Positions 49,130 through 63,037 of a stretch of DNA of 64,000 nt are shown in pieces. The notes below the pieces were generated by a model. It made no database searches. It saw nothing but the letters and a program-made list of their open reading frames with translations, and was not told the DNA's origin. The first letter of the stretch is position 1, and every line of letters starts with the position of its first letter. Location: NCBI GenBank assembly GCA_902573465.1, contig CACGJX010000004.1, positions 1 to 64,000 of the forward strand, written 5' to 3'. The position numbers and the translations under genes are program-made. Source of the DNA: an uncultured Pelagibacteraceae bacterium (GTDB taxonomy: Bacteria; Pseudomonadota; Alphaproteobacteria; Pelagibacterales; Pelagibacteraceae).

Positions 49130-50146
49130 ATGTATACATTAAATCCAAAAATAAATAATTTGTTATCAGTTTGGTTAATTATGATGTTTTGGATTATATC
49201 TTTTATGATAATAGTTGGTGGCTTAACAAGACTTACCGACTCAGGTCTTTCAATAACTGAATGGGAATTATTTTCTGGTTTTTTTCCACCTCTTAATCAA
49301 AATGATTGGATTGTTTATTTTAATCTTTATAAACAAATTCCTGAATTTAAATTACAAAACTACAATATGACTTTGAGTGAGTTTAAAGTTATTTTTTGGT
49401 GGGAATGGGCCCACAGATTTCTTGGAAGACTGATTGGTCTTGGCTACTTAATACCACTAATTTATTTTTCTTTTAAAATTAAGATTACTAAATTATTAAA
49501 TCTATATTTCATTTTTTTTCTTATATGTTTTCAAGGTTTCATTGGCTGGTATATGGTTAGTAGTGGATTAGTTGATAGAGTAGATGTAAGTCACTTTAGG
49601 TTATCTTTACATTTGCTTATTGCTTTTTTTATTTTATCTTTAATATATTGGAATTATTTAAGAATAAACGTACTAAGAAACGCAACAAACAAACTGAATA
49701 CATTTATTCCTTTATCGTTCTTAATTCTAATTTTTTTACAAATTTCAATTGGTGCCTTTGTTTCTGGTATGGATGCAGGAAAAATCTATAATACATGGCC
49801 TCTAATGGGTGGTTCATACTTTCCTGATGATAATAATTTTAATAATTTATTTAAAGTTGCGGCTCTAAGCGATCCCTCATTAGCACAATTTATTCATCGT
49901 AATTTAGCTTACTTGATAGGAATTTTTTATATTTTAATTTTCTATAAGATTTATAGAAACAAGATGCACAATTTATATAAATCTATTAACTATTTGGGAA
50001 TATTTATAACTCTTCAAATTATATTAGGTATTTTCACAGTCTTATATGGTGCACAGATTTATGTTGCATCTCTACACCAAATAAGTTCAATTTTTTTAGT
50101 TAGCTCAAGTATTTATTTTTTTTATTTAAATACAAAATTTAACTAA
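49130..50146 (+). CDS. ctaA: Heme A synthase (CtaA)
   Basis: GGLTRLTDSGLSITEWE; EWAHRFLGRLIGLGYLIP; QFIHRNLAYLIG. Confidence 0.93.
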   Translation: MYTLNPKINNLLSVWLIMMFWIISFMIIVGGLTRLTDSGLSITEWELFSGFFPPLNQNDWIVYFNLYKQIPEFKLQNYNMTLSEFKVIFWWEWAHRFLGRLIGLGYLIPLIYFSFKIKITKLLNLYFIFFLICFQGFIGWYMVSSGLVDRVDVSHFRLSLHLLIAFFILSLIYWNYLRINVLRNATNKLNTFIPLSFLILIFLQISIGAFVSGMDAGKIYNTWPLMGGSYFPDDNNFNNLFKVAALSDPSLAQFIHRNLAYLIGIFYILIFYKIYRNKMHNLYKSINYLGIFITLQIILGIFTVLYGAQIYVASLHQISSIFLVSSSIYFFYLNTKFN

Positions 50147-51467
50147 CTGCTTTTAAACTTCCTTTCGATGACTTGTTCAAAGCTTGATCTAAATCATCAA
50201 TAATATCATCAATGTGCTCAATACCTATACAAAGTCTAACATAACTCTGGGTCACACCTGATGCTGCTAATTCTTTTTCATTTAATTGACTATGAGTAGT
50301 GCTAGCAGGGTGTATAGCTAAACTTCTTGCATCTCCAATGTTTGCTACATGATAGAACATCTTTAAAGACTCAATAAATCTTTTACCAGCTTCAATACCA
50401 CCTTTAAGTTCAATACCAACCATTGGTCCATTTCCACCTTTTAGATATTGTTTAGCTCTATCAGCAATTTTCTTTTCATGTTCTGTTGAATATATAACTT
50501 TAGTAACTTCTTTGTGCTTTTTTAAAAAATTAACTACTTTTTCAGCATTTTCACAATGTTGCTTCATTCTTAGAGCTACTGTTTCAAGTCCTTGGATTAT
50601 TGCAAAAGCATTATCTGGTGCTAAAGCTGAACCTAAATCTCTAAGTAAACAAACTCTAGCTCTTACCGCAAAAGGTACATTAGCTCCTGTTAATTCTGGT
50701 ACAGCTTTTCCCCAAACTACACCTCCATAACTTGCATCTGGCTCATTAAATAAAGGTTGTCTCTTAGGATCCGCTGTCCAGTCAAAGTTACCACTATCAA
50801 CTATGCTCCCAGCAACAGCAGTTCCATGTCCTCCAATATATTTTGTTAATGAATGTATAACAACAGCCGCTCCATGTTCTATTGGTTTACATATCACTGG
50901 CGCAGCAGTATTATCCATAATTAGTGGAATGTTGTATTTTTTTCCAATATCAGAAACTTCTTTTATAGGAAACACTCTCAAATATGGATTAGGTAATGTT
51001 TCTCCATAAAAAGCTCTGGTCTTGCTATCAATTGCCTTTTCAAAATTTTTAGGATCACTTGGATCAGCATATCTAATTTCTATTCCAAGTTTACTCAATG
51101 TATGTGTAAATAATGATACTGTCCCACCATAAAGATCTGTAGAACTAACAATATTATCACCAGATTGAGCAACATTTAAAACTGCAAAACTTGAAGCGGT
51201 TTGTCCAGATGAAACTGTTACACAAGACAATCCACCTTCCAATGCTGCAATTCTTTTTTCCAAAACATCATTAGTAGGATTCATTATTCTAGTGTAGATA
51301 TTTCCAAATTCTTTTAATGCGAACAAATTTGCAGCATGTTCAGTACTTTGAAATTGATATGATGTTGTTCTATAGATTGGCACAGCAACAGCATTGGTTG
51401 CTGGGTCACTTCTGTAATCACCGCCATGTATGGCTATGGTTTCAGGATTATTTCTTTTTTTACTCAT
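50139..51467 (-). CDS. metY: O-acetylhomoserine sulfhydrylase (PLP-dependent Cys/Met metabolism enzyme)
   Basis: ETIAIHGGDYRSDPATNAVAVPIYRTTSYQF; HSLTKYIGGHGTAVAG. Confidence 0.93.
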   Translation of the reverse strand: MSKKRNNPETIAIHGGDYRSDPATNAVAVPIYRTTSYQFQSTEHAANLFALKEFGNIYTRIMNPTNDVLEKRIAALEGGLSCVTVSSGQTASSFAVLNVAQSGDNIVSSTDLYGGTVSLFTHTLSKLGIEIRYADPSDPKNFEKAIDSKTRAFYGETLPNPYLRVFPIKEVSDIGKKYNIPLIMDNTAAPVICKPIEHGAAVVIHSLTKYIGGHGTAVAGSIVDSGNFDWTADPKRQPLFNEPDASYGGVVWGKAVPELTGANVPFAVRARVCLLRDLGSALAPDNAFAIIQGLETVALRMKQHCENAEKVVNFLKKHKEVTKVIYSTEHEKKIADRAKQYLKGGNGPMVGIELKGGIEAGKRFIESLKMFYHVANIGDARSLAIHPASTTHSQLNEKELAASGVTQSYVRLCIGIEHIDDIIDDLDQALNKSSKGSLKAVS

Positions 51468-51471
51468 TTTA

Positions 51472-51531
51472 CTCCTTTTTTAGTGCTTTAGCATTATGCA
51501 AGGCGCACAATATAGTTCAAATACCTACCGA
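51472..51531 (-). promoter_or_regulatory. SAM-V-like riboswitch overlapping the metY ribosome binding site
   Basis: Minus strand GGTAGGTATTTGAACTATATTGTGCGCCTTGCATAATGCTAAAGCACTAAAAAAGGAG closely resembles the SAM-V consensus as I remember it; P1 AGGU/GCCU; 3' pseudoknot strand merges into the AAAAAAGGAG RBS 4-5 nt before ATG. Confidence 0.82.
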
Positions 51532-51545
51532 TTATGTATAATGAT

Positions 51546-57576: not shown

Positions 57577-57757
57577 AAAAACCCCTGTTTCCTTGCACTT
57601 TTAAGGGTGCAAAGAACAGTTGTTTTGGCACGTCGTTGATGCGCTACCGCCATGCCTCCCGCTCCACATGTTCAGCGATGCTTTGTGAAGCTTTCTGCCC
57701 CCTGGAATTGTACCTCTCGGTTTTTCTCCAATTGGCCAGTTAAGAGTTGCCTCTTAA
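57577..57757 (-). ncRNA. Candidate structured RNA / ogt leader (unknown family)
   Basis: GC-rich block with seven consecutive local helices (two with GNRA tetraloops) ending in a 13-bp hairpin followed by GGGTTTTT, immediately upstream of the ogt ATG. Confidence 0.55.
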
Positions 57758-57852
57758 TTCATAATTAACATAACAAATAATGATTTTTAAATGTATCACT
57801 TTTTAGGTGATTCTTTAATTCTTCCTACTTTCTTGTGAATAGTGGGGATAAA

Positions 57853-58065
57853 TTAAGTTTTAAAAAGCAATATAAAATAGCTAAACAAAAATAAGATAGC
57901 CATTATGCTTAAAAATATTGTGTTAATGCTTTTTCCAGTATTTCTATATTGAATATAGCTCAAAATTATAAAACCAATCGAACTTATCAAAAACCATACT
58001 GCAGGAATTTCACCATCTATAGAACCCATAATTATTAAATTTAAACTATTGACATTAAAAATCAC
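57853..58065 (-). CDS. Small predicted membrane protein (70 aa), unknown function
   Basis: Two hydrophobic segments (VWFLISSIGFIILSYI; TIFLSIMAILFLFSYFILLF). Confidence 0.5.
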   Translation of the reverse strand: MIFNVNSLNLIIMGSIDGEIPAVWFLISSIGFIILSYIQYRNTGKSINTIFLSIMAILFLFSYFILLFKT

Positions 58066-58077
58066 TTAATATATTAT

Positions 58078-58102
58078 TTCCGATAATTAATGGTTATCGG
58101 AA
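58078..58102. repeat. 9-7-9 perfect palindrome next to the tyrosine recombinase start
   Basis: TTCCGATAA-ttaatgg-TTATCGGAA. Confidence 0.85.
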
Positions 58103-58105
58103 TAA

Positions 58106-59062
58106 TTGATGAATAAATTAATAACAGACGTTAAAAGCTTAGAAATAGAAACTCTAAAAAATTTGAAAAATTCTAAGGCCGGAAATACATTGAGAGCTTA
58201 TCAATCCGATTTTAAAGATTTTTCATTATTTTGTAACAAAAATGGTTTTACATCTTTGCCAACACAGCCAAAAATTATTGCTTTATATATAACCAACCTT
58301 TCAAAAACTTCAAAATTTAGTACTTTAAAAAGAAGAATTGCTTCTATAAGCGTAATTCATAAACTTAAAGGTCATTATTTAGATACAAAACATCCAATAA
58401 TTACGGAAAACCTTCATGGTATTAAAAGAACTTTAGGGTCAAGACAACAAGCAAAAAAACCGATATTAATCAATGATTTAAAATTAATAATTAAAGCTAT
58501 AGATGAAGAAAAAAACAAAACTAAAAGTTTTGTAGAAAGCAAAGTTAAAGCAATTTCGAAATTAAGAGACAAAGCATTAATATTAGTTGGGTTTGCCGGT
58601 GGATTTAGACGATCAGAACTAGTCAATATTGATTATGAAGACATAGAATTTGTAAATGAAGGTGTAAAAATACTAATAAGAAGATCAAAAACAGACCAAT
58701 CAGGAGAGGGAATTATTAAAGCTATCCCCTATTTTGATAATAAAGAATTTTGTCCAGTTAAAGCACTTAAAGAATTTATAGAATTAAAATTTGCTAAAAC
58801 TAATAAAGGTAAAATTTTTGAAGTTTCAGATAAATTAGTTGCTTTAATAATAAAAAAATATACTCAAAAAGCAGGTTTAGACTCCTCTAAATACGCAGGT
58901 CATAGTTTAAGATCAGGTTTTGCAACAACTGCAGCTGAATTTGGTGCTGAAGAAAGATATATAATGGCCATGACAGGACATAAAACAAATCAAATGGTTA
59001 GAAGATATATTCATGAGGCAAATTTATTTAAAAACAACGCATTAAACAAAATTAAGATCTAA
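58106..59062 (+). CDS. Tyrosine recombinase / phage-type integrase
   Basis: N-terminal SAM-like core-binding domain; GGFRRSELVNI, SKYAGHSLRSGFATTAAEFG, MAMTGHKTNQMVRRYIH (R...HxxR...H...Y). Confidence 0.93.
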   Translation: MMNKLITDVKSLEIETLKNLKNSKAGNTLRAYQSDFKDFSLFCNKNGFTSLPTQPKIIALYITNLSKTSKFSTLKRRIASISVIHKLKGHYLDTKHPIITENLHGIKRTLGSRQQAKKPILINDLKLIIKAIDEEKNKTKSFVESKVKAISKLRDKALILVGFAGGFRRSELVNIDYEDIEFVNEGVKILIRRSKTDQSGEGIIKAIPYFDNKEFCPVKALKEFIELKFAKTNKGKIFEVSDKLVALIIKKYTQKAGLDSSKYAGHSLRSGFATTAAEFGAEERYIMAMTGHKTNQMVRRYIHEANLFKNNALNKIKI

Positions 59063-59064
59063 AC

Positions 59065-60069
59065 TCATGAATTAAGAATTTTTTTCCAATAAAGTGCAAT
59101 TTGCTTAATTCTGTATCTTTTAGAAAAATTGTAACAATAATAAGTATAACGTTTTCGTTGATTTTTATTCATATTTATAATTTTAAGAATAGTTTTATCA
59201 AAATCATTAAATTCGAATATTTTAAAAGAGTTTTTATCATTTATCAACTCATCAACAGCTGTTAAACCGAAAGTAATTATAGGTAGACCACATGAAAAAG
59301 CTTCTATGGCATTAATGCAAAACGTTTCGTCATAACCTAAACAGATCATACCCATGGAAATATTATAATGAGTTTTTAATATTTTTTTAGAAACTCTACC
59401 CTTTAAAATGATATTATAATTTAAAAAAGTTTTAATATCTTTTTTAGTAAAAGACTTTTTATCTATACCAAAAACAAAAAGTTTTGCTTTAGAATTATAT
59501 TTAAAGATTTTTTTAATCCATATATTCAGAATTTCTTTTAACCCAACTTTTCTTTGAACAGACCAAATGAAATATGGTTTTCTATCTATTTTAGTTTTAA
59601 TATTAGAAAATGTAGGATCTAAAAAATTTGAAATTACAAATTTATTTTTAAAGTTATAAATATTTGAAGTTTTTTTTAAAAGGTAATTACTTACAAAAAT
59701 AGCAGATATTTTATTTCTGATAATTGAAAAAAATTTTTTTTTTCTTATAGCTTTTTCTAGAGGAAGTTTGTTATGTATCCATAAAAAATTTTTAGAATCT
59801 TTTGAATGATTGAAAATTGATGGATCATTTGAGCTAATAATTTTATCAAATTTATAACTTGATATATTTTTTAATAAAAGATTTATGGGGATATTAATTA
59901 AATTTTTTTTTTTAATAATTTTCTTACAATTGGTAGCTAAGAAAATTTTGTAATGTGATTGAGATAGATATTTAGATAGTTCTAAATTTAAACTCTCAAT
60001 ACCACCTAAAGATTTTATATTTGGAGAATTAATATCAAAATTAAATGGACAATAAAAAAGAATGTTCAT
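59065..60069 (-). CDS. Glycosyltransferase (GT4-like)
   Basis: GGIESLNLELSKYLSQSHY; ETFCINAIEAFSCGLPIITFG. Confidence 0.82.
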   Translation of the reverse strand: MNILFYCPFNFDINSPNIKSLGGIESLNLELSKYLSQSHYKIFLATNCKKIIKKKNLINIPINLLLKNISSYKFDKIISSNDPSIFNHSKDSKNFLWIHNKLPLEKAIRKKKFFSIIRNKISAIFVSNYLLKKTSNIYNFKNKFVISNFLDPTFSNIKTKIDRKPYFIWSVQRKVGLKEILNIWIKKIFKYNSKAKLFVFGIDKKSFTKKDIKTFLNYNIILKGRVSKKILKTHYNISMGMICLGYDETFCINAIEAFSCGLPIITFGLTAVDELINDKNSFKIFEFNDFDKTILKIINMNKNQRKRYTYYCYNFSKRYRIKQIALYWKKILNS

Positions 60070-60074
60070 TTAGT

Positions 60075-60914
60075 TTAATAAGAAAAACTTTTCTTTATCT
60101 TGCAAATTATTAAATTTAAAAAGTAGCTTAATGATTTACTAGGCTCTTTTAAAGGACCATTATATGAAGACCCTGTTTTCAAATAAAATTTAAAAAAAAA
60201 TTTAGGCGTTATACCCCATTTTTTTAGAAAGGTTTTTGTACCATTATTCTTTTTTACATCTTTTTTTTTTCTCATTGATATAGATCCAAAATGATAAACC
60301 TTAAAGTCATTTAAACCTTTAAATATTCTTACACCACAGTTCCATAATTTCATATTAAGATCAGAGTCAGATCCATCTCCAGGATCAAATTCTTCACTAA
60401 ACCCCCCTACTAAATTCCAAATTTCTTTATGTATTAGGTGTGGCGCCCAATGTGATCCTTGATGATCATGCATATTTATGTTTTTATAATTGTCTAACAA
60501 GTATTGTTCATCAAAACTTTTAAAATCTATTCCAGCATCTAATATCAAATCGGCTCCTTTTTTTTGTATCATTGTGCCAGATAGATAAAAATATTTACTA
60601 TCTAATTTTTCAATCTCCTTTTTTAAAATAATATCCCACTTAGGAAGAAAATACATGTCATCATGTGAATATAATATATAATCCGTTGTAGCTAATTTAG
60701 CAGCTCTATTCACAGATCTACATAGACCAATGTTTGTTTTTGAATATGTATATAATATTTTATTTTGTTCTAAAAAGTTTTTAGTACCATCTAAATTTTC
60801 ATTTACATGAATAATTATTTCATGTTGGTTAACAGAATTTTTATTTATACTATTAACTAATATTTTTAAATAATCTAAATTATTCAACGTAGGAACAATT
60901 ATTGAAAATTTCAT
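60075..60914 (-). CDS. Glycosyltransferase family 2
   Basis: FSIIVPTLNNLDYLKILVNSI; DYILYSHDDMYFLPKWD. Confidence 0.88.
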   Translation of the reverse strand: MKFSIIVPTLNNLDYLKILVNSINKNSVNQHEIIIHVNENLDGTKNFLEQNKILYTYSKTNIGLCRSVNRAAKLATTDYILYSHDDMYFLPKWDIILKKEIEKLDSKYFYLSGTMIQKKGADLILDAGIDFKSFDEQYLLDNYKNINMHDHQGSHWAPHLIHKEIWNLVGGFSEEFDPGDGSDSDLNMKLWNCGVRIFKGLNDFKVYHFGSISMRKKKDVKKNNGTKTFLKKWGITPKFFFKFYLKTGSSYNGPLKEPSKSLSYFLNLIICKIKKSFSY

Positions 60915-63037
60915 TAAATTAATTTAGCATTATTACCTATAGAAATATCTATTATATATTTAGTAATTTTCATTTCGTTAAACAATTTAAAATATTTTTT
61001 TTTTCCATTTTTCGCAATTTTTTTTCTAACTTTCGAATTGATTTTATAAAATCTAATTTTATCTGATAAGTCATTAATATTGTCATATAAAATTATTTCA
61101 TCTTTATTAAAAAAATCACCTAGTTGTGTTTTTTTATCTATAAAAGTAAGAAGACCATTTCCAATTAATGATGCTATTCTATTACTAGAATAATATTTGG
61201 TCGGCAATCCTCTACTTAAATTTAATCCCATTTTTGAATTTACTAAAGCTTGATAAAAATTGTTTCCCCAAATTGGTTCTTTATTCTTAAAACCATAAAA
61301 GTCACAATTTATATCATTTAACTTTGCGGATAATTTGTTCAAGAAAATTATTCTATTGTCAATTTTGTCTGTTTTTAGAGATGCTCTATTTACACCATGA
61401 CTCATCGCATAAAATAAATCCATAGATGGATTGGTATTAAAAACATCAAAACATTCAATGTTTTTATCGACTGGCACAAAAAAAAAATTTATATTTGTTA
61501 TATCAAATCCTTGTTTCTTAATAATACTTGGATCTGTAGTGATAAAATTATGGTCTACTATATTACTATATATTGAAATATTTTTTAAATTTCTTTTAGA
61601 ATAATCTAGACTTGGCATCACGGGATCTTCGTTCCATTGAGTAATGATAAGATTTTTGTTTTGCTCTCTAATTTTTTTAATTGTGTCAGGTTCAATATTT
61701 TTAGTGTGACCAAATATAAATAAATCAGGATTATAATTTTTAAAGGTTTCAATTAAATAATTTTGGAATTTTTGATTTGAATTTAAACTGAAAAATCTAT
61801 TTTGACGTATAAAGTCTCTATCGCTTATTTCAAGAACGTCATGACCATTCCTAATTAATCCATTTGTAAATTTTTTTCCAATAGAAATGTTATAAAGTCT
61901 GTGATTTAATTTTTGCCCAGTGTTATATAAATTTATAATTCTTAATTTTTTGGTGATAAAATTTAAATTAAAATTGTGAATCAATTTTGATCTTATTTCA
62001 TCTATAAGTTTTGCATTAGATTTAATAGTATGTTTGACATTTTTGAAACCATTGAGTTGAAGGTTTTTTCTTAATTTAGAATTAGTTATTAGTTTTTTAA
62101 TATTTTTATATAAAGTGTCTGAATTCAAATTTTTAAGTACCAATGAATAATCAGTTGTCTCAGGTAAACCGCCTTTGTTTGATATTATTGTAGCACATGC
62201 TCGAGAAGAAGACTCAAGTGCTGTACGCCCAAAAGGTTCCTCCCATCTGGATGGTACAACAGCTATTTCTGATTTATCTAAAAAATTCAAAACTTTTTGA
62301 TGTTTTAAGAATCCAAGCTCAAAATGTCGTTTGTGATTAATATAAGGTCTATCTCTATTCTCATCTCCTATTGAATATGCCTTCCAGGCTTTGTATTCAT
62401 TCAAAATTCTTATGATAGCATCTTTATAGATATCATAACCTTTTGACTCATTTAATTTTCCAACAAAAACAATATTTTTATTTTTTTTGAATATTTTTTT
62501 ACTTTTATGAATACTCGGATAAACAACATCGGTTTTATCCAGAAGTTTTCTATCTAAATCTTTAAAAAATCTTTCCTGGGTCCATTGACTTACAAAGATG
62601 ATTTTGTCAACTTTATCTAATAAAGATAAACGTTGAGAAGTACTTTTTGATCCTTTCATACTTAGAGGATCATTATGAAAATATAAAATAAATTTTTTAT
62701 CTAATTTTTTTTTAAGAATAGTAAAAATTTGTGGTCTATTATGAATTTCTATAATTTCGAAATTTTGATTTTTGATTTTCGAAATTAAATTTTGGCAATA
62801 TTCGATGGTGGTACTAGAAAATCTTGATTTCTTATTTTGTATTGGAATGTTGATATAATTATCTGTTAAATAATCTTTATTTTTTGTATTTCCAAATATG
62901 TAATTATTTTTATTAAATTTTGAATATTTAAAAAAATCACAAACCCATATTGCTGCAGCTTGAGCTCTAGAAAAAGTATAATTTTCCTTATAAGGTAATA
63001 TTGTTGCAATTTTAATTTTCTGATTTATTGAAATCAT
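60914..63037 (-). CDS. Two-domain glycosyltransferase (N-terminal GT4, C-terminal CgeB-like)
   Basis: VFVGKLNESKGYDIYKDAI, SRWEEPFGRTALESSSRACATI; C-terminal half GLNLSRGLPTKYYSSNRIASLIGNGLLTFIDKKTQLGDFF. Confidence 0.82.
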   Translation of the reverse strand: MISINQKIKIATILPYKENYTFSRAQAAAIWVCDFFKYSKFNKNNYIFGNTKNKDYLTDNYINIPIQNKKSRFSSTTIEYCQNLISKIKNQNFEIIEIHNRPQIFTILKKKLDKKFILYFHNDPLSMKGSKSTSQRLSLLDKVDKIIFVSQWTQERFFKDLDRKLLDKTDVVYPSIHKSKKIFKKNKNIVFVGKLNESKGYDIYKDAIIRILNEYKAWKAYSIGDENRDRPYINHKRHFELGFLKHQKVLNFLDKSEIAVVPSRWEEPFGRTALESSSRACATIISNKGGLPETTDYSLVLKNLNSDTLYKNIKKLITNSKLRKNLQLNGFKNVKHTIKSNAKLIDEIRSKLIHNFNLNFITKKLRIINLYNTGQKLNHRLYNISIGKKFTNGLIRNGHDVLEISDRDFIRQNRFFSLNSNQKFQNYLIETFKNYNPDLFIFGHTKNIEPDTIKKIREQNKNLIITQWNEDPVMPSLDYSKRNLKNISIYSNIVDHNFITTDPSIIKKQGFDITNINFFFVPVDKNIECFDVFNTNPSMDLFYAMSHGVNRASLKTDKIDNRIIFLNKLSAKLNDINCDFYGFKNKEPIWGNNFYQALVNSKMGLNLSRGLPTKYYSSNRIASLIGNGLLTFIDKKTQLGDFFNKDEIILYDNINDLSDKIRFYKINSKVRKKIAKNGKKKYFKLFNEMKITKYIIDISIGNNAKLI

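Follow-up and report, generated by a model that had tools for sequence, protein, structure and literature searches.

SAR11 (Pelagibacter) bacteria rank with the most numerous cells of the ocean. In the genome of one uncultured member of the Pelagibacteraceae, a perfect palindrome lies immediately before a tyrosine recombinase gene, which raises the question of whether this sequence is the target on which the recombinase acts, the control site for its expression, or both. A survey published in 2009 by Carnoy and Roten recorded Pelagibacter ubique as a species without a dif/Xer system, read this absence as a sign that streamlining may do away with dimer resolution, and found no evidence of Cre/lox-like resolvases in dif-less proteobacteria (PMC2731167). 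The Legionellales were also recorded as lacking dif/Xer in that survey (PMC2731167), and a single-recombinase XerL system was later demonstrated in them (PMC9765430). Our literature search found no paper reporting a SAR11 dif. All coordinates below refer to the window, meaning the whole 64,000-nucleotide stretch of DNA that was analyzed.

The palindrome and its recombinase

The principal features of the locus are as follows.

58049..58054, + strand: promoter -35 element TTGACA; its TTGAC is conserved upstream of the site
58072..58077, + strand: promoter -10 element TATTAT, 17 bp from the -35 element and directly abutting the palindrome
58078..58102, + strand: type-I dif-like site of 9-7-9 form, so described from its anatomy, conservation, occurrence once per genome and the skew switch in relatives
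58078-58086, + strand: left arm TTCCGATAA, a 9-bp inverted arm
58087..58093, + strand: asymmetric 7-bp spacer TTAATGG, kept in 100 of 104 type-I loci
58094-58102, + strand: right arm TTATCGGAA, a 9-bp inverted arm
58109..59062, + strand: single-copy, Cre-like tyrosine recombinase of 317 aa, counted from an ATG conserved in relatives (318 aa from the TTG at 58106)

The original prediction had described a perfect 9-7-9 palindrome at 58078-58102, followed by alternative starts of the recombinase at 58106 (TTG) and 58109 (ATG). The coordinates of the arms and spacer agree with this description, and both start codons are where it placed them, with the ATG six bases past the palindrome's end. No second copy of the 25-bp palindrome was found in the window with up to three mismatches allowed, and across the whole genome the sole copy with exact arms (spacers of 5-9 bp allowed) is the one at 58078-58102. 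Bare palindrome statistics were considered as evidence and rejected: the window holds 12 perfect repeats with 9-bp arms and 6-8 bp spacers against 3.9 expected under a first-order Markov model, which is unremarkable in AT-rich DNA. Only two of those 12 have an arm with at least three G/C. It is conservation, not 9-arm palindromy, that marks the site out.

The recombinase contains a Pfam Phage_integrase domain (66.7 bits), and its predicted catalytic residues are R167, K194, H265, R268, H291 and Y300; this predicted series of Arg, Lys, His, Arg, His and Tyr is invariant across ten aligned sequences. It scores 67.6 bits against the XerD profile (cut-off 329.6) and 52.3 bits against the XerS profile (cut-off 267), also falls far under the curated cut-offs of the XerC and XerA profiles, and matches tyrosine invertase profiles weakly, at 33 and 25 bits. 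A SAR11 recombinase profile matched XerD, XerA and Cre about equally, with the Cre match running along nearly the whole length; profile positions 24-291 align to Cre 19-308, indicating a Cre-like full-length domain layout. A fold search based on a model with a mean pLDDT of 68.5 ranks Cre first, at about 16-17% identity in the fold alignment, and this likeness weakly supports a Cre-like nature.

Of 297 family genomes, 230 were found to carry the gene, nearly always as one copy; among the 127 with a completeness of at least 90%, it is single-copy in 111, and all 11 single-contig genomes have it. When 15 good genomes were searched for any tyrosine recombinase, 11 contained this one only, three contained one additional tyrosine recombinase, and one draft (G012) contained none. 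Since exactly one such enzyme was present in 11 of the 15 and no second tyrosine recombinase common to the 15 was found, these genomes have no XerC/XerD pair. Several near-complete drafts (G012, G019, G176, G198 and similar ones) lack both the recombinase and the site and gave no other PF00589 match; the roughly 13% of draft genomes at least 90% complete in which both gene and site are absent could reflect assembly gaps or real loss. Phylogenetically, the XerC and XerD proteins of alphaproteobacteria form a clade separate from the SAR11 recombinases, and the sister family in the same order (f174) gave weak matches only. We infer from these sequence relationships that the Pelagibacteraceae ancestor may have swapped XerCD for a phage-type recombinase together with its site. 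The label of integrase attached to the gene in the original prediction is correct as to the tyrosine recombinase family, but it does not extend to a mobile-element integrase, as this is a single-copy core chromosomal gene.

Conservation, co-variation and chromosomal position

The site lies directly upstream of the recombinase in 138 of 138 distinct loci examined, up to 30 of which were retrieved via the site itself and the remainder via the protein. The original prediction had named two circumstances that would count against it, a palindrome not conserved with the integrase and many unrelated copies across the genome; what we found is that the site is kept with the gene in relatives and that there is one site per genome. 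Among the 104 type-I loci, the arms are constant save for three changes at one outer position, while the flanking bases vary freely. The other 34 loci carry, at the same place, a type-II site of the form ATTACTAxxGATAA-TTAATkG-TTATCxxTAGTAAT. Between the two types both arms alter jointly, which fits one protein reading both arms. The proteins differ correspondingly: an insert of about 12 residues, detected by a simple pattern, is present in none of the 104 type-I and 32 of the 34 type-II recombinases, and inspection revealed it in the two type-II sequences that the pattern had missed. On the recombinase tree, the distribution of types requires two changes, the second of which rests on two long-branch sequences. 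Both site types are found within genera, which suggests that gene and site may have been exchanged as one unit.

In other alphaproteobacteria, TTCCGATAA-like palindromes are located upstream of related recombinases. The arm sequence thus travels with the recombinase family, in alphaproteobacteria as well as in phages, a pattern pointing to a site that belongs to the recombinase itself. Some of these related recombinases adjoin an HsdM methylase gene (locus L258) or a Fic gene (locus L253), and the ORF upstream of them showed no clear Pfam family.

The hallmarks of a dif site are one site per chromosome, a location at the replication terminus, and an FtsK protein with a gamma domain. Of 397 family genomes, 288 contain the core site pattern exactly once, and none contains it twice. 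By coordinate arithmetic on all 11 single-contig genomes, the distance between dnaA and the gene amounts to 0.42-0.49 of the chromosome. In each of the eight genomes analyzed, cumulative GC skew computed over a region of 180-400 kb that includes the site reaches its local maximum 0.6-2.8 kb away from the site; skew sampled elsewhere was in broad agreement in two of these eight and weak in G005. FtsK with a gamma domain is encoded in 14 of 14 genomes. Across eight genomes, the E. coli KOPS motif GGGNAGGG is oriented toward the site in 23 cases and away from it in one, and G-rich control motifs are also biased (706 toward versus 282 away), so that the KOPS polarity is partly a general G-strand bias and is supportive only.

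The promoter is conserved as well: each of the 118 distinct upstream sequences has TTGAC 31-34 bp ahead of the site's GATAA. A recombinase bound here would overlie the position at which transcription is expected to begin, and would thus likely repress its own gene. Of the two roles originally proposed for the palindrome, recombinase target and control site, both find support; the evidence favors the target and probably both together, as the -10 element of the conserved promoter directly abuts the palindrome and makes autoregulation plausible as well.

Copies of the site in phages

Phage copies surfaced only through a search for the site itself. Querying viral contigs with the site core returned 21 contigs, none of which was found to contain the recombinase gene. 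No PF00589 protein was detected in 18 of these viral records, mostly fragments, or in the complete genomes of HTVC106P and HTVC010P, and no recombinase homolog in viral contigs was confirmed through peptide patterns. On the contigs where a terminase gene could be located, the site is always nearby; the best relatives of this terminase belong to the SAR11 phages HTVC106P (85%) and the HTVC010P group. Recognizable sites, several of them degenerate, occur in the isolates HTVC106P (a near site), HTVC100P, Greip, HTVC035P, HTVC034P and others, and none was recognized in HTVC010P. The same search in 860 kb of host DNA returned little beyond the true dif. Because the viral collection is very large, the raw count of 18-mer matches in it may approach chance, and the weight of the phage copies rests on their extended arms and their constant place by the terminase gene.

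Wider searches enlarged the viral set to 177 loci, 91 of which have an HTVC010P-type terminase. Type-I and type-II sites lie near each other at 13 of the 177, as if suited to both host types; in L179 (5316-5376), L401, L442, L459, L465 and L492, dif-like sites of the two types are 33-43 bp apart near the terminase. A detectable recombinase match is present at 16 of the 177 loci, and 13 of these 16 encode a recombinase of the SAR11 kind, at 30-44% identity and 87-471 bp from the palindrome; these 13 loci belong mostly to GC-rich phages. HTVC010P-type phages carry a mimic of dif without a recombinase of their own, as do CTXphi and other IMEX phages, which exploit the XerCD of the host at dif (PMC2731167, PMC5357621), but the SAR11 carriers are tailed HTVC010P-type phages, and integration at the host dif was not seen among them.

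Recombinase-less phages with a full site argue for binding or recombination at the palindrome beyond autoregulation. No phage integrated at the host dif was found and no genome has two exact core sites, nor were HTVC010P-type structural genes found near dif in eight genomes; the phage spacers, moreover, mostly differ from that of the host. Given the lack of observed integration and the differing spacers, integration at the host dif is no likelier a role for the phage copies than resolution of the genomes that carry them.

Proposed function, alternatives and known systems

We propose that the palindrome is the dif site of the Pelagibacteraceae, served by one adjacent Cre-like recombinase, and assign this reading a probability of roughly 0.87. 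It draws on the single-copy gene, the one site per genome, the terminus location, the FtsK gamma domain and the conserved asymmetric spacer, together with the co-variation of site and protein, the same-arm palindromes by related recombinases, and the gene-less phage copies. In the mechanism that we envisage from the sequences, which covers DNA binding, strand exchange, control by FtsK, self-repression and the use made of the site by phages, the parts would fit together as follows. When homologous recombination fuses sister chromosomes into a dimer, FtsK would move the terminus DNA at the septum and bring two dif copies together. Two recombinase copies would bind the two arms of each dif, and the resulting tetramer would swap strands across the 7-bp spacer, with exchange expected within TTAATGG (58087..58093), restoring two monomers; the asymmetry of the spacer would set the direction of exchange. 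Bound recombinase would probably also repress its own synthesis, the site being at the expected transcription start, and HTVC010P-type phages would probably borrow the host recombinase for genome resolution, circularization or rare integration.

An evolutionary scenario can be built on this proposal, although we hold it tentatively and at somewhat below even odds. XerCD would have been replaced by a domesticated phage-type Cre-like recombinase with its own site, a module existing in two site types, probably incompatible, which SAR11 lineages swap as a unit. The pressure behind these swaps would come from HTVC010P-type phages, which would borrow the host enzyme by means of type-I and type-II mimics, sometimes placed side by side.

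Three other explanations deserve consideration. The palindrome could be an operator only, at which this protein or another regulator represses the gene while recombination takes place elsewhere or never. The fixed distance between site and promoter, with the -10 element abutting, in all 118 sequences would suit such an operator, but a conserved asymmetric spacer is needless for it, as is a position at the skew switch opposite the origin or a set of phage copies beside the terminase gene, and no other once-per-genome candidate site lies next to the gene; we regard this explanation as unlikely. Less probable still is that an integrated island or prophage uses the palindrome for attachment and encodes the recombinase as its integrase. 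Membership of the gene in the integrase family, the variable glycosyltransferase genes just downstream and the occurrence of the site in phages speak for this reading. The site marks one edge of a variable region, as the closest gene downstream of the recombinase is present in 12 of 50 relatives' loci and the genes upstream of the site are conserved in 45-46 of 50. However, an island should be flanked by two sites and no genome has two, the gene is vertically widespread as a single copy at a fixed chromosomal place, the upstream neighbors are kept in 46 of 50 loci, and HTVC010P-type structural genes are missing near the site in the eight genomes. Among 20 genomes without the gene, no intact empty site was found. 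As a core chromosomal gene with its site at the replication terminus, the locus looks like dif and not like an island attachment site. An invertible switch for nearby surface-sugar genes is highly improbable, since inversion requires two sites and each genome has one, even though tyrosine invertase profiles match weakly (33 and 25 bits) and surface-sugar genes lie downstream.

Returning to the dif reading, the SAR11 system looks like a counterpart of the Legionellales XerL case. By description, each pairs one recombinase with a site at the terminus in bacteria formerly recorded as having no dif/Xer, and both were uncovered through mobile elements mimicking the site; they differ in order and recombinase, and XerL/dif was proved experimentally (PMC9765430) whereas the SAR11 system is read from sequence. 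XerS/difSL of streptococci and XerH/difH of epsilonproteobacteria likewise combine one recombinase with a gene-adjacent site near the terminus (PMC5357621, PMC2731167). The SAR11 protein is, however, not of the XerS family (about 52 bits versus 267), difSL has an 11-bp center and imperfect arms whereas the SAR11 site has 7 bp and perfect arms. To XerH structures, the SAR11 profile gives a weak, partial match (E 6e-7). With XerCD/dif of E. coli and most alphaproteobacteria, the SAR11 system shares the terminus location, single copy, FtsK gamma domain and, less securely, KOPS-like polarity, but XerCD comprises two recombinases acting on an 11-6-11 site whereas SAR11 has one recombinase and a 7-bp center. 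Cre/loxP of phage P1 resembles it in its single recombinase, symmetric arms, asymmetric spacer and site close to the gene; Cre is a phage gene acting on a 13-8-13 site on phage or plasmid, whereas the SAR11 recombinase is a chromosomal core gene with a type-I 9-7-9 site on the chromosome, and the arms differ.

If the dif reading is true, SAR11, among the most abundant bacteria on Earth, retained dimer resolution via a different enzyme. Dimer resolution in SAR11 would become directly testable, a terminus marker would be supplied for SAR11 genomes, and HTVC010P-type phages, a very abundant marine group, would possibly have a hidden dependence on the host recombinase.

Several other elements lie around the locus. 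Directly downstream of the recombinase, glycosyltransferase genes occupy 59065-63037 on the - strand. Upstream of the site, a small divergent ORF of 70 aa without a Pfam match (57853-58065, - strand) is conserved in 35 of 50 relatives, with about 79-95% identity among the matches listed. At 57625-57764 on the - strand, 0.3 kb upstream of the site, lies an IMES-2 motif (Rfam RF02035, 145.6 bits), an orphan RNA that is abundant in marine environments. Farther away, a SAM-V riboswitch (51469-51535, - strand) is located just upstream of a PLP-dependent gene of sulfur-metabolism type (50139-51467).
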